A stretch of DNA of 64,000 bases from Heterotrichella gracilis (taxonomy: Eukaryota > Sar > Xanthophyceae > Tribonematales > Xanthonemataceae). The stretch spans positions 62,001 to 126,000 of the forward strand of contig JAULBX010031702.1 in the NCBI GenBank assembly GCA_032358255.1, read 5' to 3'. Below, piece after piece: positions 12,701-61,400 of this stretch. The position numbers and the translations under genes are program-made. The notes beneath the pieces were generated by a model that was not told the DNA's origin, did not search any database, and saw only the letters and a program-made list of their open reading frames with translations. Position 1 is the stretch's first letter, and every line of letters starts with the position of its first letter.

Positions 12701-15621
12701 GTCAGCACAAGCGGTTGAAGCGCTGCCTGGGCGCCTGCAACGAGGGGGTGCCATGTGGCGTTGGTGGCTGGTCCACAAAGGGGTGGGCATTTATTCAATG
12801 GCATTGATGACTGCCCCTCTATGCGGTGCAACAGCCTCCTGCTTGAAGGCTGTGGATGCGGCTCACATTGACACCCTATGCGCATTGTGAGGGTATGGAA
12901 TACGCAAAGCAAGGAGGGTTCCTGTCAATTAAACGCGTCATGCATATGCCAGAAAGGGAGGCTCTCAGGAGCGTGATGGTTTGTGGACGTACGCTGTAGC
13001 TGCTGCGGCGGCTGCCTGTCCATGAGCAGGTTGATGCATGTGACAATGGCCTCCATGCACTCCACTGCCTGCTGCTCAGGCTGGGCTGCCAGCTGCCCGG
13101 GAGCACACTCCGACCAGCACTCCAGCAGCTGCAGCGTCAAATTTTCCAACAGCGACTGGGGAGGCTGCGCATCCCCGCTGCCGCCCTTGGCTTTCGCCTT
13201 CCCCCCCTGTTTGCCTTGGCCAGTGGTGGCGCTCGGCTGCTTGCCAGGTGGCGGTTGCGTTGCGGCGTGGGCGTGGAAGAGGGGGTGGGTTGCAGATGCC
13301 TGGGCGGCTGGCCACAGGCAGCGGTGCGCAAACAGTGGGGCACTGGCCGTCTGGTCGTGGGTTGGTGCTGGAGAGGGCTCTGCCTGTGCTAGCAATTGCT
13401 GCGCTGGGTCAGCTGCGGCGGCGGCGGCCTTGGTCAGGAACCCTTTCAGGCTGTTCACCACCTGCGCGCCATAGACAAACCCTAAACCCTGAACTCCAGA
13501 CCCCTTCAGGCTGTTCACCACCTGCTTATCATTGCCACAAGCTCCATGGCTCCCGACCTGCTGCTGTTAACACCAAACCCGCATAGATATCACTGACGAC
13601 ACCAATGAGGTGGTATCTACTACATGCCAAAATCATTGGGTCATACACAGATGGAGTCATGCAACACAACTATGATTTCTTTGCATGCCCCCAACTCACA
13701 CTGGGCTCGATGCATGTCGTCAAAAACCTTGAATATGCGATCCACGGAACGTGACAACCCTCACCTTGAGGAGTGCTGCCAGTGAGCGGGAGGCCAGGCT
13801 GGCGGTGCGTGTGCCCTGTGACAGCAGGTCGCTGTAGTGCTGCAGGGTGGGCTCCATGAAATCAGAGGAGATGAGGTCGGGGGCGGCATCCATGAGCACC
13901 GCCAGGAACTTGAGGGCGTCAGACCTGGGGGGACCGCGGATGTTTAGGCCTATTTTACTTCTAATTAAAGAGCGTATTTTACTTCTAGCCACACATGCAT
14001 TCCAGCAATACAGCAGCCAAAATATGTGCTTGATTTGCCACACTGCAGATCCCTGTTACCCTAGACAAGGGTTTCACGCACCAGCTGGACACAGAGGTGG
14101 GGGAGACGAGTACGCCCCATTAGAATGCTCCATGCACACACAGCAGAGACAAGAAGCATTCGTGTGCTAGGTAATATGCAAGCTTGAGCCCAAGACGACA
14201 AACCACCGTGCTGACTCCAACCCAGCCTGTCAGCCACAGCTGACGGGCCTCAGGGACCCCATTGGGACCCCCATTAGGACCAGGGCAAGGGTGACCATTG
14301 CCCCCCTTCCCCCTTTTTGCCCCCGGCACCCCTCCCACCCACCCACCACCCACCTCACGTCCGCCGCCAGGTGCGTCATTGCGCTGCACACGTGCGCCAT
14401 GATGAGCGGCATGAAGGGGCGCAGGGCGGCAGGACCAACATGCGGCAGCACCTCACCCTGTAGACAGAAGCCACGGCTCCTCAGCGCCACACAGCGCCCA
14501 CAGGCATGGCTACCTTGATGTGTATGCTCCTCCGCATGCAACCACATTGTACGCCAATGCACCAACACATGACAGCAATTATGCGATACCATGAAATCCT
14601 GAGCCGCATTGTTGCGCAACCCCTATTCCCAGGGCGTCAACACAACCATTGAGCATGAACTCGTTGCCATAAAAGCATGCCTCTTGGACAGTGACAGGAG
14701 CATGAATGGCGCAAAACCAACTGAATTGTGATCGGTTTCTCCCCTTGTTCCCTTGTCTAGGGTGATGCAAGTGTAAGAACTCTGATTAGTCTGTTTGCAT
14801 TGGTTTCCTGCCAAGCCATGCGCACCATCCCCACCCTCGCCTCCCCACCTGCAGCAGCTCCAGCAATCCCCCCCTCACCGCCCCCTCCGCGTCCCCCACC
14901 CGCTCCGCCACCCGCTCCAGCAGCAGCGCCAGGTGGCGCCGCGCCTCGTCTGGGTGCCGCTGCAGCAGGTCGCGCAGGCCGGACAGCGCCTCTTTCCGCA
15001 CCTTGCCGCTGTAGTGGCCCAGCTGGCGGAGGAGGTCCTGGGGGCAAGGGGGTTGGGGGTGGAGAGGGGGAGGGGAGGGGAGGGAGGTGAACTGGGGCAT
15101 TGGCGGGTGGGGGGAGGAGGGTATGTGAATGGGTGGGGAGGGGGTGTGAAAGTGCTGGTGGGGTTGTTTGCGCGTTGTGTGGTGCTTTGCACGCGTGGCT
15201 GGTTGAAGCTTTCTGGGGGAGGTGGAGGAAGGTTTCTGGAGGTGTGCTGTCAGTGTGTAGTACCCGTGCGGTTGTGACTCAGTTGAGAGGACAAAGTCGT
15301 AAAGGAAATAAAGTACACTCAGAGTACAGGCCGTGAGATAAGCCTGCAGGAGTTTGAGGCAGATATCGCGCCACACACTCCCTGATATATTGCTGCAGTT
15401 ATGCATGCATGCATATGACCCCACCCTACCTTGAGTGTGAGGTTGCGTTGGTTCACCGCAGCGCCTCCCTTGTCCTCGCCTACGCTCTGACCGGGCATAC
15501 TGATGCTGCGCGACTTGAAGTTGGTCTCCGTGGCGTTCTGCGCCTGCGGCAGCTTGCGCCCCAGCTTGCGCTTGATCCGCTTGAAGTCCACATTCCCGCC
15601 ACTGGCTTTGCGCTTGCCCAT
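9711..15621 (-). CDS. IPI1: IPI1/TEX10 pre-rRNA processing protein (HEAT-repeat)
   Basis: Large minus-strand gene of at least 11 exons, from an ATG at 15621 to a TGA at 9711-9713. The N-terminus MGKRKASGGNVDFKRIKRKL is the basic start typical of Ipi1/TEX10. It is followed by DLLRQLGHYSGKVRKEALSG and EARRHLALLLERVAERVGD, the characteristic Ipi1 N-terminal HEAT region, then SDALKFLAVLMDAAPDLIS. Approximate exons: 15621-15430, 15038-14850, 14460-14358, 13926-13765, 13461-12990, 12737-12570, 12380-11990, 11680-11384, 11100-10800, 10540-9985 and 9817-9711. In yeast and animals this protein works in the Rix1/PELP1-TEX10-WDR18 complex, in ITS2 processing and nucleolar export of pre-60S subunits. The C-terminal two thirds is helical and poorly conserved, with Ala/Pro/Gly-rich inserts. 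Exact exon ends in the C-terminal half are uncertain. Confidence 0.8.
13436..13530. repeat. Duplicated splice-junction segment in IPI1
   Basis: An 18-bp core, caggctgttcaccacctg, occurs at about 13447-13464 and again at 13507-13524. The first instance is the acceptor side of an IPI1 exon (minus strand). The second lies in the preceding intron. A CCCTAAACCCTGAAC telomere-like motif sits between them. Confidence 0.75.
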
Positions 15622-16249: not shown

Positions 16250-18974
16250 ATGGACGCGCCAGGCCCCACCGTGGAACCCACCTCACAGCCCAGCACTTCT
16301 GGTACCCCAGACCCAAACCCTGGCGATACCCTAGACCCCAGCCAGGGTCTGCTGCGCGCCGCAGAGGCGGGTGACCTGGCCCTTGTGCAGCAGCTGATCG
16401 AGCAGGGGGCTGATGCCGCGTACCAAGACGGGGAGGGCATGAACGCGCTGATGGTGGCGGCTGAAGCTGGGCACGAGGAGGTTGCGGCTGCCCTGTTGGA
16501 GGCTGGCACGCCCTGGAATGCGCAGGACAAGGAGGGGTACACGGCAGGTGGGTGGGGCATCCAGGGCTTTGGGTTTAGGGTTTAGGGTGCACGGCAGGTG
16601 GGTGGGGCAGTAGGGTTTAGGGTACACGGCGGGTGGGTGCAGTAAGGAAAACTCAGGGTAGGAAAAAGGGTCTGTAGGTGGTTGCAGCATTGGAAAGAAC
16701 ATGAGTATATGCTGTGGGTTGGTGCCCTGCTGGAGTCTGGCATGACCTGCAATGCAGAAAAATAGCCTGCGCTGGTGAATGCGAGCAGACCCTAAAACCC
16801 CTCAAACAGGGAGTACTAGATGATGCATCATGGAGTGGCTTTTCCTATTGCAGGTGAGTACGCGTCTGGCAGCGGTCACAAGGCTGTTGTTGAGCTGCTG
16901 CTGGAGTGGGGAGTGAAGATGGAGCTCATTCTGGGGACACTGCAGCGGCGACAGGCGGGCGAGGGGCCAGCCAATGCAGATTACCTGAAGCAGAAACTGG
17001 TGTATAGGTAATGGGCGCTTTTACACTGCTTTCATACTGCTTTCTGTTATAATAACGATGATTCTCCAGCTCTAAGAAAATAAAGTGATTTTTAACTCTC
17101 ATAAAGATTTTCGTTTGTTCTGCTTGGCTTGCCTCCTTTTGCGTCTAGGCATGCAGACAGTGCTTGGCTTGGAAGCCATTTTGAAAATGCAGTTGCACAT
17201 CCTTCATTCCCCTCTGGTGCAGAGAGGGCCAGCTGTTGGACGCTGATGGTGAGGCTGTAATGATGGGCTGGGAGGCACCGCTCATGGTGCAACACGCACA
17301 GGTCATCTGTGCGCAAGGGGGGGATGTGCTCAACGTGGGGTGAGTGGAAAAAGTGGGGGGGGAGGGGGTGCAGCCTTGTGGACAGTATGTTGGAAGGTGT
17401 TGGCAATCTTGGTGTGCGGTTGTGGCCGTCACAGGATGCGTGTTGGGTTTACGTGCATGCGCGGGAGCTTGGTCAGGGTTTGCCGGCATGCACAGCACAC
17501 GCATAATGTTGCTCAAGTCTTGCAAACCCGGCAGCCTGGTGACGGTGCGGATCAGCACAGCACTGTGCAACATTATACCTCCATATGTGGCTCCTTGCTA
17601 AGGTCGCCACCAACTGCCTTGGCGTGTAATCCTAGGGCTTCACACCCAGGGTCGGAATCATTGTCATTACCACCCCTTTTGGAACAATACATTCAACGGA
17701 TTCAGCACCCACTGTTGCCCCTCACCCAACCACCACCTCCCCACACCCTACCCCTTCCTCCCCCTGCAGGTTCGGCCTGGGCCTCATTGACCAGGAAATC
17801 CAGACCCACTCCCCCCGCACCCACACAATCATTGAGGCCCATCCGGACGTGTATGCGCACATGCTGGCACAGGGCTGGGGGGACAAGCCAGGGGTGAAAA
17901 TACTATTTGGCAGGTGAGAAAGCACGTGGGGAAATGACCGACCTCTTAGCTGGGGCACTCTCAAAGGAATTCTATTACTTTTTTTTTCCTTTCTCAAAAC
18001 ATTTGCACTTAAGATGCGGCTCATTGTCATGTTCATGTCAATTATATTGTGCCATCATGTCAATTAGTTTGTGCTCTATTGTACATATGAGCACCTTGCC
18101 TAAGAGGCACTGAAACATTTATACTGTTAATCATTATGCCCCGTTGTCTTTTGTGCCATCCCCCTATTCGACAGTCACATCATGTGTAATTGTTCTATGT
18201 ACCATCCTAACATAATGCACTGATTGTTTGGGTTCCATAAATTGGTGGCTCATTTCCTTAATTCGTGTTTGGCAGGTGGCAGGATGTGCTCCCCCAGCTG
18301 GGCACCTATGACGGCATCTTTTTCGACACCTATGGGGAGTACTATGAGGACCTCAAGGAGTTCCACGACCAGCTGCCCACCTTGCTCAAGCCACAGGGGG
18401 TGTACTCCTTCTTCAACGGCCTGGCGCCAGACAACATCTTCTTCCACCTGGTGTATGGGAGGTGCGCGCAGGCAGGACTGGGTGGGGTGTAATGGTAGAA
18501 ACAAAATTGGCAAAATTATTCAGCCATTATTTACATAATGTATTCCGGTGTCGAGGTGTGTCAAGGAGGAGGGTAGTTTGCATGTGAACGCATTCCTGTG
18601 TAGTCCACGTGTGTTGCGGGAGGGGTTTGCCAACGGGCAGGCTGGCAGCTTGCATGTAAGGGACATTGCTGGCTAGGATGTGTCAACTCCGTAACAGTTT
18701 TCCTCATTGCGCCACACTGGCATCTTTGTTGTGCACATCGGAAGTGGCTGAATGGTGACTTTCCCTATGTAGGATTGCCTCCCTTGAGCTCCAGCGGCTG
18801 GGGATTGCCACGCAGTACCGCCCGGTCCCCATCGACGCACGGGCAAACGAGATCTGGGAGGGTGTGAAGAACCGCTACTGGCACTTCACCACCTATTTCC
18901 TCCCCGTGTGCACATTCGCTCCCCCTGACCAGCCTAGCGCAAACGCACAGGCGGCGCAGGCAGACGCAGAATAA
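16250..18974 (+). CDS. RMT2: RMT2-type protein arginine N5-methyltransferase with N-terminal ankyrin repeats
   Basis: Six exons join in perfect frame: 16250-16547, 16854-17007, 17223-17339, 17770-17913, 18276-18461 and 18773-18974, giving 366 residues. Residues about 35-125 form ankyrin repeats ([40 protein letters not shown]). The class I methyltransferase domain has the SAM motif NVGFGLGLID across an exon junction, then [14 protein letters not shown] and [17 protein letters not shown]. It ends with FFNGLAPDN and [14 protein letters not shown], all hallmarks of yeast Rmt2, which methylates the delta-nitrogen of an arginine in ribosomal protein L12. An upstream GTG-started extension stays open but has no ATG, so the ATG at 16250 is chosen. 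Tandem copies of the exon 1 donor lie in intron 1. Confidence 0.92.
16541..16640 (+). repeat. Triplicated exon 1 donor segment with TTTAGGG motifs (RMT2 intron 1)
   Basis: The string acggcaggtgggtg forms the exon 1 donor at 16541-16554. It recurs at about 16591-16604 and, with one change, at about 16625-16638. The copies are separated by TTTAGGGTTTAGGG and TAGGGTTTAGGG. Confidence 0.85.
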
Positions 18975-19370
18975 TTGCAGGGCCATCTCATGCGGCTCCT
19001 ATCTTAGTGAGAATGGCGCCGCGAGAGCCAATTAGGGTTGTGTGTGGTGTGATTCATGAGCTTTAGATTGACAGATTCTTTGCTGATCACCTTGGAGCAC
19101 ATCTGGGTAAATCTCAATTCCCACTCAGTGCCATGATTTTCCATTAATGGTCACAACTTGTCAAAACGGTTCAGCCTTGCTGAAGGTCCCATCACCATCA
19201 ATAATGGGGTACAGCTGCAACAACAATGCCTCACGCGAGCTCGCTCAGGCAGCAACTATGTTACCAACCATATATTATTGATCACACTGTTTAAACTATA
19301 TGATCCCCTGCGTCCCTCGCGCAATTGGATGTCAATTTAATCGCCGTGGAACCTGCCACTGACACGTGCA
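18975..19370. other. Spacer between convergent RMT2 and ACL4 genes
   Basis: About 400 bp of 3' flanking sequence for both genes. I find no TGTAA signal in the expected orientation close to the RMT2 stop and nothing else recognisable. Confidence 0.5.
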
Positions 19371-22300
19371 TCATGCCTCTTTCTCCTCGTCCACATCCGC
19401 CACCCCCGCCTCAGCCGCAGCGGCAGCCAAGCCCTCCTCAACAGCAGCCTGCATGGGAGACAGGCAAGTGTTTGTCTGCTGCAGGGATGAAGCTGGTGCT
19501 TGGAAGCCTTCTTTGCAATGATTACCCCCCATTTGATGTTCCGTAACCCTTTGACACCGCGACGCCATACAAACAAACAAACAAAAGGCGTTCCAAGCCG
19601 TCATTGCAACACTTAATTGATTAGCTACTGATGTCAATTTGCGAGCATGGTTTGCCTCCACAACCTCCTGCACCAGCAGTTGCAGTTGCCTTTTTGTAAG
19701 TATGTGCATTCCAGCTTAGCATGTCTCAGGGTATGCCTCGCCCCACTCCAAGAGCCAAGGAAATATTGTTAGAAACCCTTGTCTTCTTGTAAGCAAGGTA
19801 GTAAGGCACAAAATGGCCCCCTCACCACCATGACCTCGCTGCCTGCTCAGCATGGCGCATGCAACCACATTTATATTATTCAAGGGTTTACGGTTTCAAC
19901 TGCGAGCTGGCACAGCAAAATCCCTCAGGGGAACCCACTCAGGGGATCTGTGTAGGGTTTAGGGTTCAGGGTTTAGGATGCGCGCCTTGAGCTCCTTGAA
20001 CGCCACCATGACCTCGCTGTCTGGTGAACAGCGCAGCTTCCTGGCCAGCGCCATGCCCTTCTCCACAGTGTCTGCCGCCTCCTCAAAGTCCCCGCCTGCG
20101 TGGTAGCACATGGCCAGCAGGTACCACACATCGGGCACGCAGTCGTTCTCCTCAAGCAGGTCCTCGCACACCTGGAGGAAGAGTAAAGAATAAAAAATAG
20201 TTACTAAATAAACAGAAATAAAAACAATGCTTAACACATATGAATGCCCGGAAGGCAATTGACATGAACAAGGGAAACAATTTTCTTTTAAGTGTATTAA
20301 AGGATTGTAATCACAACAAAGAGTCACGGGTGCAACATGTAGACAGCATGCTGGTTATTCCTACATTTACAACAATATTGAAATGTGGACAAAAATCACT
20401 ATGAGAACCACGTGAAGAATACATGCGCCAAAGCCTCACCGCTATCGCCGTGTCTGTATTTTCATCCAGGTCCAGCAGCAGCTTGGCCGCCTCGAACCGG
20501 AACTCATACGAAGGAATACCATCATCATCATCATCGTCATCGTCATCACTTTCCTCCCCTGACAAATCCCCCTCATCCCCCTTCACCCCCTTGCTGCCCA
20601 GCAGCAGCTCCTCCTCCGCTTCATCCCCCTCACCCTGCCCCTCCTCCCCTTCTTCTGCTGTTTCCTCCTTGTCGGGCTTGAGCCACAGCGCCAGGGACTG
20701 CTTGAGGAAATCTAGCGCCTCCTCAGGCCGACCTTGCTCGTTGCGCAAGCTGGCCAGGGCCTGGAAAGTGGGGAACCGCTTTACAAATGTAGAAAAGGAG
20801 CAAGGCCATATCCAATGGTGGATGCAACTCTACTCAGGTGCATGCGTGTGATGCATCGTGAAATCATTTGTCATTTTAAAATCCTGACTCAATACCTGAT
20901 CAATGCAGACCTTCCATCACATGCTTCACCCAACCCCACCATTACCATCTGGACAATCAACGAGACTCCACTGACTCATAACCCTCCAATCCTAAACCCT
21001 CCCGACCTGCAGCAACTCTTGGTGCGCCACCACTGCGCGCCGCTCACACTCCTCCACCACCCACTACACCAACCCCTTCATTAACCCCACCGGTGCTGAC
21101 CCCTGCTGTATATTACCACCACCCCTTCCTCAACCCCCACGCCTGTTCAAACACCGGCTGCAAAACAGATAATTCCTAATTTTCTTCAAAAATTGACCGA
21201 CCTGCAGCGGCTCTGGCGACTCGGGGTGCGCCACCACCGCGTGCTTTAGCAGCTGCTCGCACTCCTCTGCCACCCCCGCCACGTCAACCGCACATGCCAT
21301 GAGTGTCTCCACCTGGAAGCACAGCGCGGTGGCCAGGGTGGTGTCCAGGGTCCGCCGCTCGTCGGGGTTGGTACCCAGCTGCTCCTGCGGGGGGGCAGGG
21401 AAGGGTTTTTAAAGAACCGCGATGGTTAAAACTGCTTTGAGCCAAAATACATAGTGATACAACTCTATTAGGTAGGGCCGATGCGTAAGCTTGCTCCTGT
21501 TTCAGAGGGATCCTAGTGCGCTGTCATGGAGAAGATTGTGTGCGGTCGAGCAACACTCTGCTTCACCAGGCAATGCTGGGGATTGTCAGCAGCCATTGCT
21601 CTGCCATTAGGTGGTGCACATACACGCATGGCCACCCTGCCCCGCCACGCACAATCTCCTGTATTTGCGCCCTCAGCACCTCCACCCCCTTGCGCACAGC
21701 CTCAACCGCCTCCTCGCCCTCAAGCACCTGGCCTAGGTACCTGGGGGAACACAGGGGGGAGGGGGGTCATGTGGGCACTAGAAAGGGGGGACGAGGGGGC
21801 GAGGTGTGGGTCACGGGCATCAATAAGAGGGGTTGGAGGGGGAGGGGGATCATGCGCATTGCATGCGGAGAGCGAGGGGTGTGGATCATGTGCATGAGGG
21901 GGGCAGGAGGGATATAATTCCCCTGCACTAGCGAGTGACCACCACATACCCTTCGGGTTCAGGGTTTAGGGTCCCCTTGCACTCACAGGTACTTCTCGTG
22001 CCCCTTGTCCGGCTGCAGCCCTATTGCCCTGCGCAGCACACTGGCAGCCTCCTCGTGGCGCCCAACCTCGGCCAGCACCATGCCGTACATGTCGAGCACA
22101 TCAATGTTCTGTGGGCAAAGGGAGCATAAACAGGTGTTGGTTGGGGGGGTTGAGGGTGGGGGGTTTGAGGGTGGGGGGTGAACACTATTGGGCACCTGCT
22201 GCATTGGTGCCCAGTGCAGCAGGCGGCGTAGATGCATGGCGACATGCCCATCCCTCCCCCATTTCGCACACCCACCATACAGCATTTGGGTGGGTGGGTG

Positions 22301-23932: not shown

Positions 23933-26900
23933 ATGGCTGAAGTACCCTCGCAAGGGCAAGATGCAGACGACGAGTTCTGCTTCAACGCCTGGTCGGGCCC
24001 ACGATGCGTGAGCACGAGCCTCATGTACTCCTTTGCCCAACGAGCCGACACCACGGTAAAGGAGCCCTAAACCCTAAGCCCACCACCACCACCTGGATAG
24101 CTTCTGCTTCTTCACACCATGTGGCCAAACCCTAAACAAGGTTATGGTCCAATGCTTCTGTGGGTTGTGTGCAGGTACTTGACGAGCCTCTGTATGCGAA
24201 CTGGTTGAGGCTCACTGGCGCACCCAGACCCTATCGGGAGCAGGTGCGTACCCTAGGGTAATATGCATGCATATATACGCCACTCTTCTGGACAAACCTT
24301 ATACCCTAACTCGCAAGGAAAATTGTACACACTCTAAACCTTAACCCCACAATGGGGGGAGTACACACCCATGTCCATTCACTGACAGGGAGAAAGCGTG
24401 CACACCCTAAACAATCCCTCTAAAGGATAGGGTGCACACCCAAAACCCTAAACCCCACAAGAGGGTACGTATGCCAGTGCGCTCAGGGCTATATGTATGC
24501 ATGATGGTATCATGAAGTCTCATCAATGATGGTATCAATACTGGGTGGTTTGTGGCCGGTGTTGGTATGTGCTGGCATAGCTCTGATGGGTGGCGTGGTT
24601 TCGTGTGTGGCAGGTGCTGGCGTCACAGGACAACGATGGGGCTCGGGTGGTAGACGACCTAATACTAGGACCCAGAAAATCCAAGGTGGGGACCAGGTGC
24701 TTGCCACACAACAACACCTGCAACTCGCCTGCTGAAAGCGCACAAGTCCTGTGACCACATTGCACACACTGCCACCCATCACCCTGTACCACATGGCCAG
24801 GAGAGGAGGGTCCTGCTTCTTCCCATTAACCCTTCAGGAATTGGACCACCGCCGATCATAGGTGCTGTGCGCCAAATACTCGGCCATGCAGCGACCAGGC
24901 ACCCCCCCTCTCCATTCACCACCGCCTCCCTGCCACCCACACCCCCCACCCCACCCCACCTCAACACCCCCGCCACCGCCCACCGCCCACGCACCATCTC
25001 CCGCCACCGACTCCACGAACAAACACTCAAAAGATCATTTTGTGTAAAAAATTCATTTCCACCCCCAGGTGCTGTATGCCAAGCACATGGCCAAGCAGCG
25101 CCTGGGCACCGACCCGCGCCTCACTCGCCTGGCGCGCCACATGCTGCTGGTGCGTGAGCCCTACGCGGTCATCACATCATTCTCCGAGGTGCTTGAGCCC
25201 ACGCTGGGTGAGACCTGCTACCCTGCGCTGTGCGAGGTGTTCAGCGAGCTCAGGGCAATGGGGTGGGTGCGGTGGGGAGTGGGGGGTGGGGGAGAGGGAG
25301 GGAGAGCTGGGCAAGGGGGAGGGAACGTTTTTATGCTAATTTGTCAAATTTGTGAGCAGCTGTTGTGCTTATAAGAAACAACCCAAAGTTCAGGTACGTG
25401 CTTATGGTACACTGGGGAGGGTATTGCCTTTAATCACCATCATGAACACACGTTGTCCATTGCCTGCCTGATGACCACCCACTTACTATCTGCTAATTTT
25501 AAATATGTACTTGTGCATTTTCCAGGAGGCAGCCACCTGTCGTCCTTTCGGACGACCTTGTGAGGAATCCCGAGGGCATGCTTCGCGCGCTGTGCAAGGC
25601 ACTCAACCTGCCGTGGGACCAGGCGATGCTGAGCTGGGCCGCTGGGCCAAAACCCTACGATGGGGTGTGGGCGCCGTGGTGGTACGAGGGGACGCACAAG
25701 TCCACAGGCAAGTAAAGTAAAATTGTGGAGATTTACGACGGATTCCGAATGAAATATACAGCAAGTACTTTATTCTCAACTTTTAATTCGAACGTATGTG
25801 TTGACATTTGAGGAGTTTCCTCTGAAAGTGTCTGTTTGTATAATTGCATAAATTTCTGTTTGTAAATTCATCTTGATGTATTTCTCCCTTGAATGCTGCC
25901 CCCTGCTGCAGGGTTTGAGGCCCCCGGAGGCTTCGCCAAGCGAAAACCCTTGCCCGCGCACCTCAAACCCTTGCTGGCGGAGTGCCGACCCTTCTTCGAA
26001 ATGCTCAAGCAGCACGCCCTGCGGCCCCTGGACCCGGCTGCTGTGGAGGTGCCACGTGGCATTGGCCAAGGGGAAAGGGGTGAAATGGGTGATGGAGGGG
26101 AGGAAGCTGGCACCAGCGGGGGTGCAAAGGAGAAATCTGGGACGCATGCATATGTTGATGATCCCAGGAATGCGGATATTTTGATCGGCATCCGGAACGG
26201 GGTCACAGGTGGGGTGCACTGACGGGGAATTCTAAATTTGGACAAAAGAGCTTGCATCGTTCATTGCAATTTCAAGAAAGCGGACTTTGTGTAATTAAAT
26301 CCACAGATCAATTTATCCCACTGCTGCTGTCCAGCCCATGTCGCTGCATTGCAACCCTACATGCCATCGCACATATCCGCCTTAAACCATCAGCTCCTCG
26401 ACAGTGCTGACTGAAAGCTCAAATTGGCCCCTGTCGCACATCCTCTCTCAAACCATATCCTCACCCTCCCACAGGCGCCTTTGACCTGGCGTGGCGCCCC
26501 GATGCGCGCATGTTTGTGTTTGACAGCGGGTCTGTGACCTGGATATCTTCCCTTGCCTGCTCGTCAGGGCCTGCATATAAGTGCAAAGGAATACCTCCCC
26601 AGCAGTGGGGATATCAGTGGCAAAGAGAGTGCGCCTTATCCCATAGGCTGCAGGCTCACCTTGCCGTTTCGCCTCCCTCTCAAGTCTTACGCTCCGCTCC
26701 CTGCAGGCGCCTTTGACCTGGCGTGGCGCCCCGATGCGCGCGTGTCTGTGTTTGACAGCGGGTTCATGCTGGGCGATGGGGTGTGGGAGGGCATCCGGTT
26801 GCACACGGGGGTGCTGCTGTTTGCTGGGGATCACCTGGACAGGCTGTACGAGGGGGCCAAGGGGATCGACATGCACATAGGTGGGTGCGGGGGCAGGCTG

Positions 26901-28940
26901 GGACAAGGTGAAGTATGGCTCGGGCGCAGTAGGCTCAGGGCCGCATGGGTCGAGTGTTGACAGGTGCGCTGATAATGCACCGATGGCTATCATGGCCATG
27001 CTGGCAACATTTGTTCATGGGGGAGCATTGGGAGGGGTCTTGTGAGGGACCAAGGCGATTGACGTGGATGAGGATGTCACATCATCGAACCACACACCTT
27101 ACATGTTCTGCAATGTACTCAGGTGCCAGCCAAACAACACTTTCACCGTCCCACCCCTGCCCTACCCGCCACAGTCACCACACCTCACATGCATGCAGAT
27201 CTTTCCAAGGAAGAGCTTCAGCGGCTGATCTACGACACTATCAATGCCAACGACATGTCCGATGCCTCTGGGGTGCACATCCGCCTCATGGTGACGCGTG
27301 GCCTCAAGCCCACGCCCTACCAAAACCCTAATATCACCCTAGGCAGCCCCACCATTGTCATCATTCCAGAGTACAAGGAGGCTGCCGCTGGGCCAAAGGT
27401 GGGATGATATTCAATTGCTTATGATATCAATTTTATTATATCTATTTATGTATTATCTCTGTAAGTTAAGAATTGGTTTACTATGTATATATCTGTGTGT
27501 CGTTTTATTACTCAGTATTTGAAGTTTTGCCCCCCACCCCTATGTGGTTATGAGTTTAATTGCCCCTTGCCCGCAGGAGAAGGGCATCCGCCTTTTCACC
27601 TGCCACGTGCGGCGAGGTGCCCCAGATGTGCAGGACCCAATGTGGAATTCGCACTCTAAGCTCAACTGCATCGCAGCGTGCATACAGGTAGCTAGCTCTT
27701 TCTCCCCTCCCAAAAGCACATGTGCGACAGTGCTTGGCGAGTTAAATGCCTGTACAATGTATGATAGTTTTCATATTATGTTTATGACATTTGTTGCATG
27801 TCTTATGTGGTTGTTTATGTACTAGCTCCTCCCTCTCCTCCTTACCACAGGTAAGCTGGTACGGATGTTTGTGCGTCAGTTTGTTTATGCTCATTGAACT
27901 GCCCCCCTCCCCTCCTCCCAGTCGGGCCAACAAGGTCGGCGCTGCGCGGCTGACCCCCACAACTTTCTAAGACATAGGTGCTCCCATATGTTTTCTTTAT
28001 TCACCCATTGTTCCGCCTATCCCCCTTCCCCTTCAGGCCAACAAGGCCGGCGCTGACGAGGCGCTCATGCTGGACCCCCACGGCTTTGTGGCCACCTGCA
28101 ACTCGGTCAACTTTGCGATGGTGCGCAAGGGCGAGCTGTGGGCACCCACGCTGCGCTACCAGCTGCACGGCATCACGCGCATGCACACCCTGCAGCTGGC
28201 CAGGGACATGGGGATGACAGTCAGGGAGCTGGACTTTACCCTCACTGAGGCACGTCACGACCCTAAACCCTAAAGCTAGACCCTAAAAATAACGTGATGC
28301 TGCTGGCCAGGGACATGGGGGTGGCGGTCAAGGAGCTGGACTTTACCCTAATTGAGGCACAGCACAACCTGAAACCCTAAACCCTACAGCTAAAACCTAA
28401 CATGCATGTGATGCGGTTGGCCAGGGACGTGGGAATGGACGGCAAGGAACCAAGATTTTTTTACTAATTGAGGCGAGGAAGCTGTAGTGTATGCCGTGTT
28501 GAGTAATGTGAGGTAGCTTGCAAGCAGTTGTTGAATGCGTGGCAAGCTGTGCTGGGTTGGGAATGACAGCATTTAAGTAGTAAAGCATGCGCAGCATGTG
28601 TCGCAGGAAAGCACAGCTGGTGCGTTGATAGTGCAAGCGTTTGAAAGCTGGGCACATGTGCAATGGCTGCTATGCGGTCACTATGCATAGGCCAGCAAAC
28701 TACATATAATACTTATCTTTGCAAGTGCTTCGAAGTGTACACAACTTGAACCTGTTTGCTGTGCAGGTGTACAATGCGGAGGAAGCTTTTGTGACTGGCA
28801 CATTTGCTGGGCAGATACCAGTACGCGAAGTGGACGGGAGGGTGATTGGGACTGGGAAACGAGGTCCAGTGACAGCCAGGCTGCAGCAAGCGTATGCAGA
28901 CCTGGTGGAGAGTACGAGTGCCGCCGCATTGGAGCTCTGA
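23933..28940 (+). CDS. Branched-chain-aminotransferase-like protein: sulfotransferase-like P-loop domain fused to class IV PLP aminotransferase
   Basis: Eleven exons join in frame: 23933-24055, 24175-24243, 24614-24685, 25069-25262, 25526-25707, 25912-26208, 26707-26880, 27199-27398, 27577-27687, 28037-28249 and 28767-28940, giving 602 residues. The N-terminal third (FNAWSGPRCVSTSLMYSFAQ, RHMLLVREPYAVITSF) resembles a sulfotransferase or P-loop fold. The C-terminal part is a fold type IV aminotransferase: VFDSGFMLGDGVWEGIR, SKLNCIAACIQANKAGADEA with the presumed PLP lysine in SKLN (about residue 465), and AFVTGTFAGQIPV. The same fusion exists in Arabidopsis BCAT-like proteins, whose substrates are unsettled. 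Introns after 25707 and 28249 need GC donors (gcaagt, gcacgt). Several introns hold degraded copies of neighbouring exon ends. Confidence 0.88.
24859..25112 (+). repeat. Degenerate acceptor-side copy of exon 4 (aminotransferase fusion gene)
   Basis: The sequence aggtgctgtgcgccaaatac at 24860-24879, and onwards to about 24904, parallels the acceptor and first 40 bp of the exon at 25069. Shared strings include aggtgctgt, gccaa, cggccatgcagcg/tggccaagcagcg and gggcacc/aggcacc. Confidence 0.8.
26462..26764 (+). repeat. Duplicated exon 7 start with intact acceptor (aminotransferase fusion gene)
   Basis: Positions 26476-26531 repeat 26707-26762 with only a few differences. Both begin ag|gcgcctttgacctggc and run to gtttgacagcgggt. 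The parent continues into FMLGDGVWEG. The copy diverges there and loses this conserved block. The two are about 231 bp apart. Confidence 0.9.
27922..28082 (+). repeat. Degenerate acceptor-side copy of exon 10 (aminotransferase fusion gene)
   Basis: The segment ggccaacaaggtcggcgctg at about 27926-27945, continuing to cccccac, matches the true exon start ggccaacaaggccggcgctg at 28036. The copy lacks about 10 bp in the middle. Confidence 0.8.
28192..28452 (+). repeat. Triplicated exon 10 end with CCCTAAA motifs (aminotransferase fusion gene)
   Basis: The exon end ctggccagggacatggggat at about 28196, running to actgaggcac, recurs with few changes at about 28301-28360. A shorter third version lies at about 28418-28452. 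Telomere-like ccctaaaccctaaa strings separate the copies. The first two retain the tgaggcac GC-donor context. Confidence 0.9.
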
Positions 28941-29722: not shown

Positions 29723-29727
29723 TTACA
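29723..29727 (-). terminator. TGTAA polyadenylation signal candidate for the formin
   Basis: Minus-strand TGTAA about 56 nt downstream of the formin stop at 29783. Short but plausible spacing. Confidence 0.45.
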
Positions 29728-45600: not shown

Positions 45601-48600
45601 ACATGGAGTACAACATGGCCCGCCAGGTGAACCTAAACCCTACTCCTGAAACCCTAACCCTGGAATCTATTGAGCCAGAGGGCTCATCCCTGGGACTGGA
45701 TGCGCACATGCAGTACAACCCTAAACCTTACACCCTAAACCCCAGAACCAGCGAGCCAGAGGACGCATCCCTGGGACTGGATGTGCACATGGAGTACGAC
45801 ATGGCTTGCCAGGGATCATGACTGCCTCGCCCGCTGTTTCCGCCCGCTATTGACCTGCCGGGCTGCGTTCAAAGTGGTATCTTGTTTTGTGTTCCTACCC
45901 GTTTTTGCTCCTGTTCTGACTGTCACAGTGTGGCATGTCGCCTCCAATCGCCCGCTGCTTGGGGTTTGAATAGACCCCGTCCTTCTTATATTTGTTTGTC
46001 AGAAATAGGAATCTCAGAAAATACTGAGGAATTGTGTTTTCGTAGGTGGTGCATGACCGCCGCATGGCCATCGCTGCGGGCAACGACCAGTACCTGCATG
46101 CCAACTCAGCACGCAGCACCTCAGCGAGTGAGACGAGCCTGAGCCGGGGCCCCAGCACGCGTATGGCCAGCCGCCAGGGGAGCGGTGCCCTAGACGGGGT
46201 GCACCACATAGAGCAGGGCATGCAGGCAAGGGCAGCAATTAACCATTACCCATTTCAACCATTGTAAATTGTGGTCAAATGTGCATTTCAACCATTTTTT
46301 CTTTTGTGGAAGAATGTGTATTGACAAGAAACAAAACATAACAAATGTGGTCAAACATTTGCTGCACTTTGTATTAGAAATTTACTTTGACATTTCAAGG
46401 TAGCAGGTAATCTACCCCCCCCCCCAAAGTAAGTATTTTGTACATGGACAATTTCCAACCATTATGTCCATTCATTATGCAGGCGCACAGCGCAAGTGGG
46501 GAGCTGGCGGGGCCCGGGGCGCTATCTATCCGCAGGCCCCAATCGCGGCTCCTTTCCATTGACAGCAGCCGAGGGCTGGGTGAGCTGTCCAGCAGCAACC
46601 AGCTCCGCCAGGGGTCAAGGAGGCTATCGGCGCTGTTGGGCAGCGGGCGATCGGCCCTTGGCATGCGGGAGGATCAAGCGGCGCCCAGCACGAGCCGCCC
46701 GACCAGCTGCAAGAGCTCCACGAGCGCTGCAGGCGGGGGGGTGGAGCCCACGCACAGTGGTCAAGAGGCGCCAACCACCAGCAGCCAGCTCATGAGCCAA
46801 AGAAGCGCTGCTGGCACAGGAGGTGAGCGCACGCAGCTTGGGATGCAAGGCGATCAAGGGGCGCCCAGCACCAGCCAACCCGCCAGCTGGGAAAGCGCCA
46901 CAAGCGCCGCAGGCAGGGGAGTTGGGCCCAGTCAGCATCAGGCGCCAGGTGGCAGCGTGGCGTTGAGCAGCCTGGATAGCGTCATCTCTGCCTGGGATAG
47001 CCGGCGGCCCACCCCGAATGGCCACCCCCCACCGCCACCTCATGTTGAGGAGGGTGCAGGAGTGGGTGCGGGGGTGGGTGCAGGGGAGGGTGCAGGAGTG
47101 GGTGCAGGAGTGGGTGCACGAGTGGGGGCAGGGGTTGGTGCAGGAGTGGGGGCAGAAGAAGGTGCAGTGGAGGAGGCGCTGGCTGATGCGCTGGAGGTTT
47201 CGCCTAGCGGCGACTCTGCTGCCATCCCCGAGCTCGACCGACTTGCGCACAAGCTTGACCACATGGTTACCTACAAGTTCTCATGCGTGCTCAGCCCATC
47301 GGTCGGGGTGCTGCGGAGCAAGTGCGACGTGGAGCGCATGCGGTGAGCGGCTGGGGAAACCTTGGCCTGGTTCGTTTACCCTAACGCGGTCCTGAGGTTG
47401 GCGCTCACCTGAACCCTCACTTGTATCCCTGGGCTGAACCCTGCTGACCCTGGCGCCACATGTGGCTGTCTGCCGGAGGACACTTGAGGGCTGCACCTGA
47501 TAAATGGGTATGGTCATGTGGTGAACAGCGGTCTCGGAAAGCAGCATGGGGCTCCTCCGTTTAGGTACAAACCTATTTGCTTAAGTAGCGGTGTGCCCTG
47601 CATCAAGAACCAGAATTACCAGGCAACTGGTTTTTCATGACCGTCGTATCATGGGATGGTCTTGTACCCCTTTTTCCAATCCATTACCACCAGCTTGTGC
47701 AAGCACTGTCAACCCCTACACACTCGTACGCAACCTCCACCAACTGACAGAGAAGCTCACACGTACTGCCATGGGCACCCGTCAAAGGTGCTGGAACCAA
47801 CCCAGTTGCCTAATCCCCTACACTGGAATCTAATCCAGCGGTCAACCCTAAACCCAAACTCCTAAACCCCTAACCCTACTGACAGAAGCCCTCCCCTCGT
47901 TTGCTGCCAGGGAGCTCGCCAACCTGTACACGGGCAAGTCACATGCTGTGCCCCGGGAGGTGCTTATCGAGGCACAGGGGGTGCTCAAGTACGCCATGGC
48001 GGCATATGGGCTGCAGGACAACATGTGGTTCCAGGGCAGGTGCGCTAGGAGGTGGTAGCCAGCTGTAGGGTATTTTAGGGTGTATGTAGAGGTGTCTTTG
48101 CGTGTCTGTAGGGGACCTGTTCTGCCGCTGCTGCGCTGGTTGGGCTGGTTCTTTTTCATGCATATGTATTGTTAAATTTGTTCTTTCCCCCCTTCGCTGT
48201 GCAGCTCTGTTGTCGTACGCCGCCTTTGCCATCGAATCCCCTCCCTTCCCTTACCCCTTACCCCTTGGCTGTCAGAGTGGGATGATCCTAGATTACCCAC
48301 CTACCATCCTCCCTCGTATACCCACACCACATCCCTATACCTGACAACTTGACCATCCTCCCCTGCGCCCTTCCCCAGGCCCATGAACCAGGCTCAATCG
48401 TGGGCCAAATGCTTTGCTGGCTGCCTGCATATATCCTGCCGCACACGCAACCTGCGGCTGGTGTACGGATTGCTGGGGATGGAACCCGGGGACCCCGCGC
48501 TGGTGCATGCAAGCTACACCAACGTCTCGCGAGGTGCGCAAGTGTGCCAGGGTGGGGCGCTGTGTAGGGGAGTTGATGGGTACGGGTGCGTGGGGAAGTG

Positions 48601-51600
48601 GCTTTGAGAAATGTAATGTTGGGGGCGGTGATGTGGGTATGTGGGTGTGGATGTACAGTCTTGCTCTTAGGCTGGGTTGGTTAAAAGAAAGGGCAACAGT
48701 GTGGGTTAGTCCTTGCAACTGCACCTACCTACAACCCCCATGCCTGCAGGTGCATTACCCCATGCATTACCCCACACCCCCCATGCCTGCAGGTGCATTA
48801 CCCTACATTGTGGTCACTGATGAGGTGCGGCGCCGCCTGATCATTGCTGTGCGCGGCACTGTGAGCATGGATGACCTGGTCACTGACCTGCTGAGCAAGC
48901 CTGTGGGGGTGGATGAATGGCTGCCAGAGGGGTTCAGGGAGGTGAGAGTGGCGGGGTTTTAAGGTTGAGGGAGCGGGGGTTAACACTAATATTAAAGGAT
49001 CGAAGTAATAGCCAAGAGGCCATGTACTTCTGCATACACACAGATTGTTTTTATGAAGGCAAGTCAAATGGCAGGGGCTTTGCGCAATGGTCTGCAAGCT
49101 GAAAACCACATTTTCTATCCACTATTATTTTACGCCCATATGATTCCATTCCCGTTATGCTGCAGGCGCACCCATACGAAGGCCCCGCCCACGTGCACGC
49201 AGGGGTTGTGGATGCAGCCACGGCAGTGCTACGGGACCTGGTGGCATGGGGTGGGTGCACCCTGAACCCTGAACCCTGAACCCTAAACCCTAAAGCTGAT
49301 GGCTAGGGATACGGGTTGAGATCAGAGTCCTCGGCATGTGGCATGGGTAGATGAAGCAAGGGCCTGCATGGTCTGAAAAGGCACAATTGTCAGATTTCCT
49401 TGCGAGGATTCTCTTAAATTTCCCCTCGGTGGCTACCGTGTCACCTCCCCTTGTCATCCCCCTCCTATCACATCTGATTTATCCCACCCCCCCTTGCAGG
49501 CATCCTCCCCGAAGTGGCTCTCCAGCAGGGCGACACCCCCCTCCCCCCAACGCCCACCGCCAGCACCACCACCCGCCGCCCAGTCCGCCCCTCCCTGGGC
49601 GCCAGCGTGCATGCTGACCGGGCACGCTGCGCCGCCATTGGCCGCCTGCTGGCCCAGGGGGAGTGGCAGGTGGTGACTACAGGCCACTCCCTGGGGGCTG
49701 CGGTGGCTACCATGCTGGCGCTCAAGCTGTGCTGCTGCTACCCACGTGCGTGCGCTGCTTGGGGGGGCGTGCCCTGGGAATGTGAACCCCTGAGTGGCTT
49801 GCCGTCAGGCAATGCCACGCTGCACATGACAGTGTTGATGCAGGGGCTTGATAGCACTACTGGGCTGCATGTGGCCACGGGTTGTATCTAATGCTTAGTC
49901 TGCCGCCCGAATCTCCATGTACCCCTGCTTAGATTTTGTCTCCTTGACAGGCCTTCCACCAACACACGAGGAAACTCAGTGCAAAATCCAAACCTGACTC
50001 GAGGCGCCTCCCCATTGCAGGCGTGCAGTGCTGGGCCTACTGCCCCCCCGGCGGCCTCATGAGCGCCAACCTTTCCTCCGCCTGCGCCCCCCTGGTGCAC
50101 TCCCTGGTGGTTGGCAAGGATGTGGTGTCGCGCCTGTCGCTGCACACAATGCAGCGGTTCATGGACGAGGCGGTGGTGGCCTTGGCAAGATGCAAGTGCG
50201 TGTTAAGGGTTGGGGTAGGGTTTGGCTTAAGTCAGGCCTTGGCGCTGGCGTTGGTTTGTTTTTTTTGATAGGATTTTGGTAGGGTTTGTGAGGGGCTTCA
50301 TGGTACAGGCGGTATGTTGTCGGTTAGATGCAAGTGAGTGCTTGCTGGGGTTTTGTCATATGTGTTGCCATGATGGGCGGCTGCAAATATCAGCTTGAGT
50401 ACGGTAGTCCGCCACCCACCACCCCTCCACCCACACCCACACTCACACCCACACCCACACCCACACCCACACCCACACCCACACCCACACCCACACCCAC
50501 ACCCACACCCACACCCACACCCACCCACCCCTACACCCGCCAGGTACTCCAAGCTGCACGCCCTGTGGATCATCCTGCGCCACAAGCTTGCCAACATGAC
50601 CACACAGGCTAGGGACCTGTTCTACAGATACGAGGACATACCGGATGAGGCGGCCGACACCCTGCAGCAGTAAGTGCACCTGTCCATGCCCCACTGCCTC
50701 CCCTGGATGAATAGGCCTTGCCACTTGTGGGTCTGTGCATGTGCCACGTCATGCAGCAGAGCTGTGTATGAACCAAGCAAGGGCACGGGGGGTGCCTGGC
50801 CTCCGCACCATGCTGCCATGTCTATCAGCGCAGCGACGACGATGCCATCATGTACATATGTCATGTCCCATGTCACCAATGATAATGACAATGAGAATGA
50901 ACAATGACAACCACAAGTACAACTGCAATCACAATGACAACGTCCCTTTACAATGTGCCGCCCACACTGCTTGCACGTGCACCAACCCGCCATCGGCAAT
51001 GTCCATTCCCCTCCCTGTTGCAGGCTGCATGACGCGTCCACCCTGCCCGAGGGCTCCCACATCCCCCTCTACCCCCCCGGCTCCATCGCCTTCCTGCGCC
51101 TGCTGGGGACCGACACCAGCACCCGCCATCCCCGCGAGGCCTGGGATGCAGTGTGGGTGAAGCCCGAGGATGTGATCGGCGAGGGCATCCTTGTATCCAA
51201 CAAAATGCTGGCGCACCACCGCGCGCCAAAGTGTAAGGAGGCCATTGCCAGCGCCTTGCTGCTGGCGCCTGGGGATAAGCTGGAGGTGGTGGAGTCAGGG
51301 TCGGAGTGCAGCTGGAGTCAGGTGGAGGTGCCTGAGGTGGTGGTGGGCATGGAGGGCAGGTGAATGCGGGGAGGGGAGTATCGGATGGATTACTATAGTG
51401 AGGGGTTGATGGTGTAGTGTAGTGGGGCAACGGATTGTCGTCCTTCTTAGGATGTGCGGGGTTAAGAGGCAATATTATGTCACTCAACCTGAGCCTTATC
51501 AGTTGCAGGAGAAAGTTTGACATGGGGAATGCACACTACTGTTGCAGCAAGGCGCGCTCTGAAGGGGGCAGCTATACATCCCACTGCACAATTATCTATA

Positions 51601-56018: not shown

Positions 56019-58462
<2,444 letters not shown>

Positions 58463-61400
58463 GGTTATTGTTAGCTTTGACCCAACCAACTACAGCAGCG
58501 CAACTACACAGTAGTGAGCACCAAAGTACTGCAGCAGCTACAAGTGCACAAGACAGCATCCAGGTTGCACCAACACATCACGATGACAGTGACCAGCTAC
58601 CTCCAGCCTTGCATTTTGAACGCCTGGGCGAGGAGCAGGTGGCAACGCACAGCAGCAGCTTTCAAAGGCAGCTGACAGCGGTGCACAGGCCAAGGAAACG
58701 AAAGGGCACACCCTCTGTCGCCACATGGACACAGCAGCAGAAAGTGGCAGCCAGCGACAGTGGTTCAGCTCTGCGTATCACCAGCACAGCCAGCACAGTT
58801 GAGGCCCCTCCCACCAAAAGGCCCTTCCAAAGCCACAGCCTGCAGGACAACTGGGAGCTGCCACTGCCAGGTGGGCGCCACAAGTCGCACGCCACCCGCG
58901 AGGAGAAGGTCGCTTACGCCAAAAGCTTGTTGGCAGACGTAAAAAACCTGCGCTCAAGCCACACCTGCATCGAAGGCCGCCTCCCGGAGCACAGGGTGTG
59001 CACGCTATTTAATGTGGCCATCTACAAAGGGGCGGTGTATTATGTCAGTGAAGATGGCGAGGGGCCGCCACCGGTGCACATACGGCTGCGCTTTGATGTC
59101 CCATCCCCAAACTGGTTCAGCCCGACAGTCAGCAAGCCGGAGCAAGTGCCCTTCTTCACTGGTGCTGACCCGCAGCTTGAGGTGCAGGTATGGCTTGCAT
59201 AGCATTGACAAATCACATGCTGAATATGCTGCTCTGCATCGCCATGTTCCCGCATGCACACCAAGGATACCCACATGGCTGTTTGCCTCCTACCCACTTG
59301 AAGCCGCGCACAGCCATGCCTTGCACCCCGTGCAGGTGGTTGAGAACTCGCTGCTGTTCTACATCCCCGCCTTCAGCAACTACATGCACATGGTGGCGGA
59401 GTACGCGGCATCGCTGTTCGGTGTGGCGTGCAAGTACCTAGGCTACTGCCAGTACAGGAGCACGTCCAAGCTGTGGGTGGTGCACCCCGAGGCAAGGGGG
59501 GATGGTGAGCAGAAATGGGCGGGGAAGGGATGCCGTTGGGTGGCAATACCCTGCCTGGGGGTGGCAATGCTGTGGGTTTTCATCCATACTGCCCATTGCA
59601 CCTTTGCATTGCACTGAATATATTCTTACTGCAAAGAGATGATATTTTGTATTTGCTGTACAGTGTTGCTGGATGACAGTGAGCTACCACACCACAAGGC
59701 ATGAACGGCAACATGTTCTTGTATCTTCACATCGCACTTGTGATGTGCTAGGGGCTGCCTATGGTTCAAATTGTGCCAGATTTTGATCACGGTAGTCAGT
59801 TCCGCCAGCCCCCCACCCACCCATCCGCATGTCTCCCTGCAGCGCCCGACCTGGGGATCAACGCAGCCCCCATCGAGGCCGCGCTGGGCTGCGTGGCGCC
59901 GGCGCGCTTGCTGCACCTCAGTGACCCCACCATCTCCTCAGCGGTGGTGGTGCTGCTGACGGCGGTGGTGGGCATCGGCCCCGACTGCACCGCCAACCAC
60001 TACTGCGACCACCCCAACTCCAAGGTGTTGGAGGGGGAGCGCACGGAGCGAGAGCCCGCGCATGAGCGCCTCAATGTGCTGTGGAAGCGCGCCATCATGC
60101 AGGTGGGATGGTGGGCTTGGGTGGGGTGGTGGGCTTGTGATCGTGCCCTGGGTGAGGCGTATGCGCTGCCTGGTGCATGTGCCGCTGTTTACACACCCAT
60201 ACGTGCCATGCATAGGTTGTCCACATGCAGCCATGCAGTTCACTCCCATCCACCACCAGCCCATCACCGCCAACGCCGCCGCACCCTTCCCACCCCTCGC
60301 GCCCTCACCCCCCCCCCCCCTGCCCCACAGTGCGTGGGTCTGGACCCGCTGGCCGCCGCCCCCACCCACCCGCCGGTGCTCACCGTCATCAACCGCCCCT
60401 ACGCCGCGGGCCGCTCCTTCGTCAACGTGTGGGACCTGGTCCATGCGCTGCGGGCGCACTTTGACACCCGCGTGGATGTGCGCCTGCGCCATCTGGATGG
60501 GCTGAGCCTCGCGGAGCAGGCGCAGGTGTTCCACGAGACCTCCGTCATGCTCATGGTGGGTGGCAGGCAGGATAGGAGGGGCAGGGAGTGCCTGTTTGGG
60601 TTGGTCCATATGCAGGGATGAGTGTGCTACATGCGGTATGTGCATGCAGGCGTTTTATTCAGTAGGTTGAAATTTGCCACCACCAGAAAGTCTGACAAAG
60701 AATCCCACTGCACTTGGGAGCTTGTCCATCATAGCTGCTAGTAGGTACAAGGACATACTGTGAGTACGTTAACAGCCCCAATCCATCTCTGGGTTGAATT
60801 GCGCCCCACGCGCCCTGCTTGTGCCCCACATTGCACCGCCATTGTGGCTGCACCTCACCGATCCCCTCCCCACCCCCCTCCCCTGCCGCCCAGAACCATG
60901 GCGCCGCCATGGCCAACTCGGTGTTCCTGCCACGCAACGCCGTGGTCATCCACTTCAACTCGCAGAGCTTCTACTACGACCTCAAAGCATGGGCGCAGGA
61001 GGCAATCGGCAGGTGGGTGGATAGAAGAAGGCGGGTGGGCGTGGCGCTGCAGGGAGACACCCCTTTACTAAAGGGCACAGTAGCGTTGCCGGGTCTGATG
61101 CCGCTGGGTCTAAAGGCTTTAGAGGAGAAATTCCCCTTCCTTTACCTGTCCTGCCAGATGGCGCCCCTTCAAAACCACCAATGGCACCCCCCCACACCTC
61201 TCACACACCGCTGCACCTCTGCCCCACGGCAGGTGGCACCACTTCAACATCACCATCCATGCATTCTGTCTCCCCTCACCCCTCACACCCCTCTCCCCAC
61301 GTCGACCCCCTGCCAGGTGGCGCCCCTTCAACATCGACGTCATGCATGTGGACAACAGCGACCCCGCGCACATGGCCATGCGCTGGGAGGACATCATGGC

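Follow-up and report, generated by a model that had tools for sequence, protein, structure and literature searches.

Introduction

Tandem duplications of a few tens of bp, and short internal arrays of telomere repeats, have both been attributed to the repair of broken DNA, in different organisms. Their closest described forms are compared here with a pattern in the xanthophyte alga Heterotrichella gracilis, in a stretch of 64,000 nt (GenBank assembly GCA_032358255.1, contig JAULBX010031702.1, positions 62,001 to 126,000 of the forward strand; "the window" below): exon ends, including their splice signals, recur as direct copies in the adjacent introns, often with short arrays of the heptamer CCCTAAA, evidently the alga's telomere repeat. 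In plants, as reportedly described by Schiml et al. in 2016 and by Vaughn and Bennetzen in 2014, tandem duplications are formed through paired nicks or patch-mediated break repair. Like those in the alga, they are said to be direct, tens of bp long, attributed to fill-in of staggered breaks, and sometimes accompanied by filler; to our knowledge, they have no tie to splice junctions or to telomeric filler.

In mammals, telomeric sequences have been inserted at double-strand breaks, with microhomology implicating telomerase; the flank is duplicated at 6 of 130 loci in rodents and at 4 of 25 in primates (Nergadze et al., 2007, PMC2246262). Short telomere arrays at internal sites, ascribed in mammals to telomerase acting in break repair, are common to both systems. 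In the alga, however, the arrays are concentrated at splice junctions and flank duplication is common, whereas in the mammalian loci it is rare; the main text of that paper contains neither the word splice nor the word exon (PMC2246262).

In Drosophila, intron sliding and intron gain have been described as results of tandem duplication (Lehmann et al., 2010, PMC2891723), in which a stretch of exon that contains a splice or proto-splice site is duplicated and one copy becomes intronic, as in the alga. The Drosophila introns were inferred to be new from near intron pairs, the footprint of the duplication being mostly lost; in the alga, by contrast, existing junctions are duplicated outward, the copies can still be read, the filler is telomeric, and the register expected of intron birth was not strongly found. 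Short repeats at recently gained introns of Daphnia have likewise been ascribed to break repair (PMC3488318). There too, break repair touches exon-intron structure, but in Daphnia it concerns new introns and here the growth of existing ones. As far as this limited comparison with the literature goes, the combination of these features at splice junctions across a genome is new; priority is not claimed.

Materials and methods

The window lies on contig C897 of an assembly of 68.5 Mb in 903 contigs. Genes were modelled by a small, home-made hidden-Markov model (HMM) gene finder. Its training set was the window plus 200 kb of contig C2, where the first model gave 32 genes and 491 introns (median 257 bp); retraining with 50 kb of contig C46 added brought the annotated sample to 314 kb. 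Exon ends were compared with their own introns in the window and C2 (the 314 kb less 50 kb), retaining 347 of 477 introns (flanking exons of at least 40 bp, intron under 1500 bp). The association of arrays with duplications was assessed in 534 introns of 60-999 bp without N, of which 454 were at least 120 bp; unspliced and spliced extension were compared in 445 introns, and the register expected of intron birth was sought in 410. Low-complexity pairs were excluded from the counts of local repeats and from those against rotated annotation. Whole-genome string counts need no gene models; in these, overlapping registers were tallied apart. Apart from RMT2, gene names are tentative, being suggested by the translations.

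Duplicated splice junctions

An ungapped scan found 21 direct repeats at separations of 20-400 bp in the window, against none in ten shuffles, and none when the window was scanned in the same way at offsets of 3, 8, and 20 kb. The 200 kb of C2 held 94 (0-1 in shuffles), some of them minisatellite arrays. With inverted local repeats numbering 0 in the window and 2 in C2, the repeats are local and direct, not inverted, as tandem duplications are. Two of the 21 in the window, the two longest, are ordinary tandem coding repeats of a polyubiquitin gene (56025-57650, minus strand), which also contains a run of 100 N.

Introns match the ends of their own exons. At a score of at least 16, the last 100 bp of the upstream exon were matched in 26 of 347 introns and the first 100 bp of the downstream exon in 21, while random exon ends from other genes gave no match in 996 upstream pairs and none downstream. 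Non-adjacent exons of the same gene gave 1 match in 686, and inverted own exon ends none at score 16 and one at score 14. By these comparisons the matches are locus-specific. The original prediction, made from the window's sequence, had named this comparison of own exon ends with shuffled pairings as its test, and the outcome is strongly positive. With the exon reach extended to 200 bp, 27 of 48 matches lay within 3 bp of the junction; decoy exons explain some of the remote ones.

The same prediction had held that exon ends are repeated in neighbouring introns, and all 14 groups that it listed are present in the sequence, at splice junctions according to the HMM gene models, which are not always right. 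The copies are, as it said, direct, local, unequally decayed, and tied to CCCTAAA. Realigned as 18 pairs, each against the maximum of 300 dinucleotide shuffles, all exceeded that maximum, 21003/21203 narrowly (16.5 vs. 15.5) and 61155/61313 modestly (20.5 vs. 17.5); where the members of a pair were less than 150 bp apart, the split point had been optimised for the real sequence alone, which favours it slightly. Three of the 18 realignments fell on another pair of the same group, the intended pairs being documented by the ungapped scan: both 16541 pairs realigned as 16576-16604/16611-16639 (intended 16535-16559/16585-16609 and 16535-16554/16620-16639), and 28196/28418 realigned as the first and second copies (scan pair 28294-28319/28408-28433).

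A copy reaching the junction (score at least 12, within 6 bp) was found at 48 intron sides among the 445 introns. Beyond the junction, 25 of these copies match the unspliced intron better, none matches the spliced neighbour better, and 23 match neither clearly; the template was therefore DNA, or at most unspliced RNA. Copying from mRNA was considered and rejected, as 0 of 48 extend clearly better across the spliced junction, 45627-46045 being a weak spliced-like case. The copies are 76-100% identical to the used junction, most of them clearly diverged, with mismatches spread nearly evenly over the codon positions (12.7, 13.3, and 17.1%) and indels in 16 of the 48 alignments, as expected of relics decaying near-neutrally. 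The splice dinucleotide is kept in 32 of 48, against 36.4 expected from overall divergence; this is no clear depletion, and strong selection against decoy splice sites was rejected on that account. Relics lie 56-225 bp from the used junction, 25 of the 48 at 80-120 bp. Only one falls at 120-140 bp, and ten at 175-213 bp form a second group.

Telomere repeats at splice junctions

That the associated motif is the telomere repeat of the organism, that it is concentrated at splice junctions, and that it stands mostly between the duplicated copies are points that the original prediction missed. Arrays of nine CCCTAAA units were counted at 22 places, some overlapping, spread over 11 contigs. On six contigs they are in forward orientation, each no more than 200 bases from where the contig starts and pointing as a telomere would (contig starts were the ends examined); on the other five they are in reverse orientation. 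Three-unit arrays occur at 834 places, the reversed pattern at none. Like interstitial telomeric sequences, the short arrays consist of the alga's own telomere repeat and stand away from chromosome ends.

Counted in both orientations over the 314 kb, telomeric 7-mers reach 6.3 per kb in introns, compared with 0.95 in exons and 1.55 in intergenic sequence; in introns of at least 150 bp the figure is 7.30, against 0.77 after shuffling. They are densest at the two intron ends, with 14.6 per kb over the first 60 bp and 10.9 over the last 60 bp, against 4.0 in mid-intron (19.3, 14.8, and 5.1, respectively, in the 139 introns with strongly coding flanks). None of 19 other motifs of the same composition exceeded 2.0 per kb in any class; chance composition was rejected, the telomere necklace alone of the 20 being enriched. 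The gradient is steepest for long arrays: those of at least 14 bp number 1.75 per kb within 20 bp of a junction and 1.30 at 20-40 bp, against 0.11-0.37 in six deeper bins. This is a seven- to eightfold excess within 40 bp, compared with a density only about 1.6 times higher for matches of 7-8 bp, so that the least decayed arrays are those at the junction. Arrays with at least 14 telomeric bp were found at 61 of 830 intron ends and at none of 74 flanks of start and stop codons (p = 0.007).

An array of any length is present in the terminal 80 bp of 22% of intron 5′ ends and 13% of 3′ ends. Sense-strand CCCTAAA and TTTAGGG are equally common in the 5′ half of introns (92:93) but not in the 3′ half (105:41), probably because the AG in TTTAGGG is avoided ahead of the acceptor. 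Arrays at both ends of one intron were seen in 7 of 390 introns (3.5 expected), too few to interpret. The intron at 49251 has, immediately past its donor, a variant array (49259-49291) in which ACCCTGA units pass into CCCTAAA; degenerate units in such a position might be traces of mutation within an array.

Arrays and duplications together

Where a telomeric block lies no more than 70 bp from the donor, 23 of 93 introns carry a copy of the donor junction, against 18 of 361 others (p = 1.2e-7); at the acceptor, the corresponding figures are 12 of 64 and 23 of 390 (p = 0.0014). Among the 48 junction copies, the array stands only between the copies in 15, on both sides of the inner copy in 10, and only beyond it in 2, and is absent from 21; in 25 of 48, then, counting the two-sided cases, an array separates the duplicated flanks. 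Seen from the arrays, an exon copy can be detected on the far side of 16 of the 31 long ones at donors and 9 of the 28 at acceptors. Long arrays of CCCTAAA sense are closely placed: 11 of 17 at donors begin 5-14 nt past the exon, directly behind the splice signal, and on the 3′ side 22 of 23 lie 5-34 nt before the acceptor.

Counts over the whole genome agree in direction. The donor-like string CAGGTRNG is followed by the telomere decamer CCCTAAACCC at 0-29 nt in 606 places and at 150-179 nt in 263; CCCTAAACCC precedes the acceptor-like string TGCAGG by 5-34 nt in 1105 places and by 155-184 nt in 560. In the TTTAGGG orientation there are 945 places near donors genome-wide, a count that has no distant control. 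Spacing was assessed on 186 listed donor-plus-telomere sites (96 and 90 after merging, of the 945 and 606): at 21 of the 186 the motif recurs on the same strand no more than 300 bp away, where uniform scatter, which ignores the clustering of genes, would give 0.3. Fifteen of these 21 repeats lie 85-118 bp apart. Threefold donor-plus-telomere units at regular intervals occur on contigs C23 (72994, 73106, and 73218; spacing 112 bp) and C15 (16491, 16595, and 16699; spacing 104 bp).

A possible mechanism and its alternatives

The reading we favour, with a little more belief than doubt, is a recurrent, junction-focused break repair, in which a tandem duplication, its gap filled with telomeric repeats, shifts the splice site in use outward so that the intron becomes longer. 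DNA at exon-intron junctions, the presumed preferred site of the lesion, would be repeatedly broken or nicked, a staggered break being the likely first step. Repair would duplicate the segment between the two offset breaks, usually some tens of bp of exon with its splice signal, and the gap would often be sealed with a short telomere repeat, by telomerase or by captured telomeric DNA. If the outermost copy of the splice site can then be used, the protein would be unchanged and the gene would therefore survive, the old junction being left in the intron as a neutrally decaying relic. With each further round the junction would shift by about 80-120 bp, again outward, and the intron would grow. 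The data are consistent with the earlier suggestion of an ongoing local process of break repair. The wider proposition, that junctions are mutational hot spots healed by telomerase or telomeric DNA and that this drives intron growth throughout the genome in quanta of about 95 bp, is offered tentatively, as something we can imagine being true but would not yet expect.

Several observations weigh against the favoured reading. Duplications by themselves are only modestly enriched at boundaries relative to rotated annotation (window, 10 vs. 5.3, sd 1.8; C2, 23 vs. 18.9, sd 4.3), so that it is chiefly the arrays that speak for targeting; this goes against the stress that the original prediction laid on boundaries, the sharp signal being that of the telomeric arrays. 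For 21 of the 48 copies, a telomeric 7-mer is found neither in the interval between the copies nor immediately past them, and some of these are plain tandem duplications; in the 10 with an array on both sides, the array may predate the duplication. No copy was detected beyond 15 of the 31 long donor arrays and 19 of the 28 long acceptor arrays. At a threshold of 7 bp, the contrast between start- and stop-codon flanks (7 of 74) and intron ends (146 of 830) is weak (p = 0.08). The gene finder fused some adjacent genes and called some decoy copies exons, which affected some models and some of the remote matches.

Tandem duplications and telomeric insertions might instead occur everywhere, with coding selection leaving only those that are non-coding or that span a splice site, so that anchoring at junctions would reflect survivorship without targeting. 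Selection of this kind must operate, and duplications do also lie wholly within introns (40 of the 94 C2 pairs, arrays included), and their boundary share is only modestly raised. Survivorship, however, predicts a flat density of filler from splice site to mid-intron, at odds with the steep excess of long arrays within 40 bp, and it does not account for their absence from the 74 flanks of coding-sequence ends, which are under the same coding constraint. Were intron edges merely protected from deletion, old, short arrays should be enriched there and not the long, least decayed ones that are found, and edge protection was rejected for that reason. Since these expectations of an even process all failed, junction-focused repair is preferred, and survivorship as the whole explanation seems to us fairly unlikely. 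The main alternative is that telomere-type motifs near splice sites are selected elements of splicing or chromatin, with the duplications carried along or merely creating them. Telobox-like elements and UAGGG-type binding sites for RNA-binding proteins are precedents, and the position peaks of CCCTAAA-sense arrays behind donors and ahead of acceptors, as well as the difference in orientation between intron halves, are what such selection might produce. Against this, most intron ends have no array, neither orientation predominates in the 5′ half, the bias in the 3′ half is also explained by avoidance of AG before the acceptor, and arrays stand preferentially between duplicated copies; we regard the explanation as unlikely. 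Nothing was found in favour of an assembly artefact, and the divergence of most copies, together with the recurrence of the motif pairs on many contigs, makes one scarcely credible.

The introns themselves might have been born in such events, by duplication of an AGGT-containing segment around filler within an exon, or by introner-like insertion. In the first case, the donor context should recur at the acceptor of the same intron. This register was found in 0 of 410 introns at a score of at least 15; a weak excess appears at lower scores, with 2 of the 410 at score 12 where 0.10 would be expected and 7 at score 10 where 0.55 would. These seven short matches, one of them in the window intron 17914-18275, could stem from old intron gains. 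Exon-end copies lie near the 5′ end of the intron and exon-start copies near its 3′ end, the opposite of a birth register, and the matches are locus-specific (0 of 996 for other genes, 1 of 686 for non-adjacent exons of the same gene, in a comparison covering exon ends against introns); intron birth as the general explanation seems to us very unlikely. Candidate de novo introns, taken as short HMM introns with exon-like ends, were also rejected: among six inspected, several proved to be decoy copies called exons, for instance within an adenylate-kinase-like gene and where a syntaxin-like gene on C2 ends (both names suggested by the translations). The evidence is of growth and splice-site migration in existing introns, not of birth, with a small excess remaining. 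Of the consequences that the original prediction had drawn, longer introns are borne out, since introns with junction copies have a median length of 343 bp (69 introns) against 280 bp in the others (385 introns; p = 0.0009), and the creation of new ones is not.

Intron lengthening and splice-site movement have otherwise mostly had to be deduced from ancient, worn traces. In this alga, 48 relic junctions can be read in 0.3 Mb, which extrapolates to thousands genome-wide, many with recognisable filler, so that the process can be tested directly in one organism. If the preference for junctions is mutational, it would tie the regions around splice sites to DNA breakage as well as to telomerase or telomeric DNA, a link that would come as a surprise in research on intron evolution and on telomeres alike. 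The two thirds of relic junctions (32 of 48) that keep a usable splice dinucleotide may also constitute a supply of latent alternative splice sites.

Duplicated junctions and other features of the window

The duplicated junctions of the window are collected in Table 1. The junction of the RMT2 intron at 16548-16853 is confirmed by gap-free alignment to five homologues. With 62% identity, the best match to the RMT2 protein carries the label Chrzof1, taken here to mean Chromochloris zofingiensis; among the matches listed, the next are mostly other chlorophytes, and none of the 120 listed is identical. For the group at 61230/61313, the first gene model used the middle copy and the retrained model the last (intron end 61316).

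Table 1. Positions of duplicated splice junctions and associated arrays in the window (fractions are identities to the junction named).
Feature	Positions	Strand	Basis or remark
Used acceptor junction and exon start, TEX10/IPI1-like gene	13440..13465	-	Repeat scan, gene models, realignment
Intronic copy of 13440..13465 acceptor junction, 25/26 identical	13500..13525	-	Realignment
14-bp telomeric array between the 13440 and 13500 copies	13477..13490	-	
Used donor junction, RMT2 exon 1	16535..16559	+	Junction confirmed by homologues
RMT2 donor junction, first intronic copy	16585..16609	+	Repeat scan
RMT2 donor junction, second intronic copy	16620..16639	+	Repeat scan
Telomeric array, TTTAGGG sense, between RMT2 copies	16571..16588	+	Second array 16612-16623
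Exon end, TPR gene	20003..20023	-	Copy 19825-19845, telomeric array between; absent from the list of the original prediction
Exon end, TPR gene, donor 14 bp away	21216..21244	-	Gene models, own-exon test, realignment
Intronic copy of 21216..21244, 24/29, marginal score	21012..21040	-	Realignment
Acceptor junction and exon start	25067..25110	+	Realignment
Intronic copy of 25067..25110, decayed, 34/44	24860..24903	+	Realignment
Acceptor junction and exon start, aminotransferase-like gene	26677..26763	+	Judged the used copy from protein sequence, by eye
Upstream copy of 26677..26763, 77/86, AG intact	26445..26531	+	Called an exon by the gene finder
Acceptor junction	28021..28055	+	Realignment
Intronic copy of 28021..28055, 29/35	27910..27944	+	Realignment
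Exon end with GC donor, then telomeric array	28191..28268	+	Repeat scan, gene models, realignment
Intronic copy of 28191..28268, 66/78, telomeric array behind	28298..28375	+	Third, weaker copy 28408-28433
Acceptor junction, sulfotransferase/TPR gene	38336..38388	-	Realignment
Intronic copy of 38336..38388, 45/53, telomeric array between	38433..38485	-	
Donor junction	39739..39783	-	Realignment
Intronic copy of 39739..39783, 37/45, telomeric motifs between	39552..39596	-	
Exon end, donor 5 bp away	40864..40930	-	Extension test, realignment
Intronic copy of 40864..40930, 54/67, telomeric motifs between	40754..40821	-	
Intron end and exon start	44242..44322	+	Realignment
Plain tandem copy of 44242..44322, 67/81, without telomeric filler	44149..44233	+	
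Exon end at donor, lipase-3/DAGL-like gene	45554..45627	+	Realignment
Intronic copy of 45554..45627, 43/48	45672..45719	+	Realignment
Intronic copy of 45554..45627, 68/74; GG where donor GT expected	45740..45813	+	
Acceptor junction	48771..48803	+	Realignment
Intronic copy of 48771..48803, 31/33	48728..48760	+	Realignment
Downstream-most acceptor copy region, GT61-like gene	61272..61347	+	Realignment
Second acceptor copy, GT61-like gene, 58/74	61190..61264	+	Third copy 61150-61172

Two further arrays in the window are of other kinds. A 12-bp tandem array at 47052-47167 in the DAGL-like gene codes for a Gly/Val-rich repeat, and a near-perfect (CACCCA)16 array, built on a different hexamer, lies in or beside the same gene at 50428-50524.

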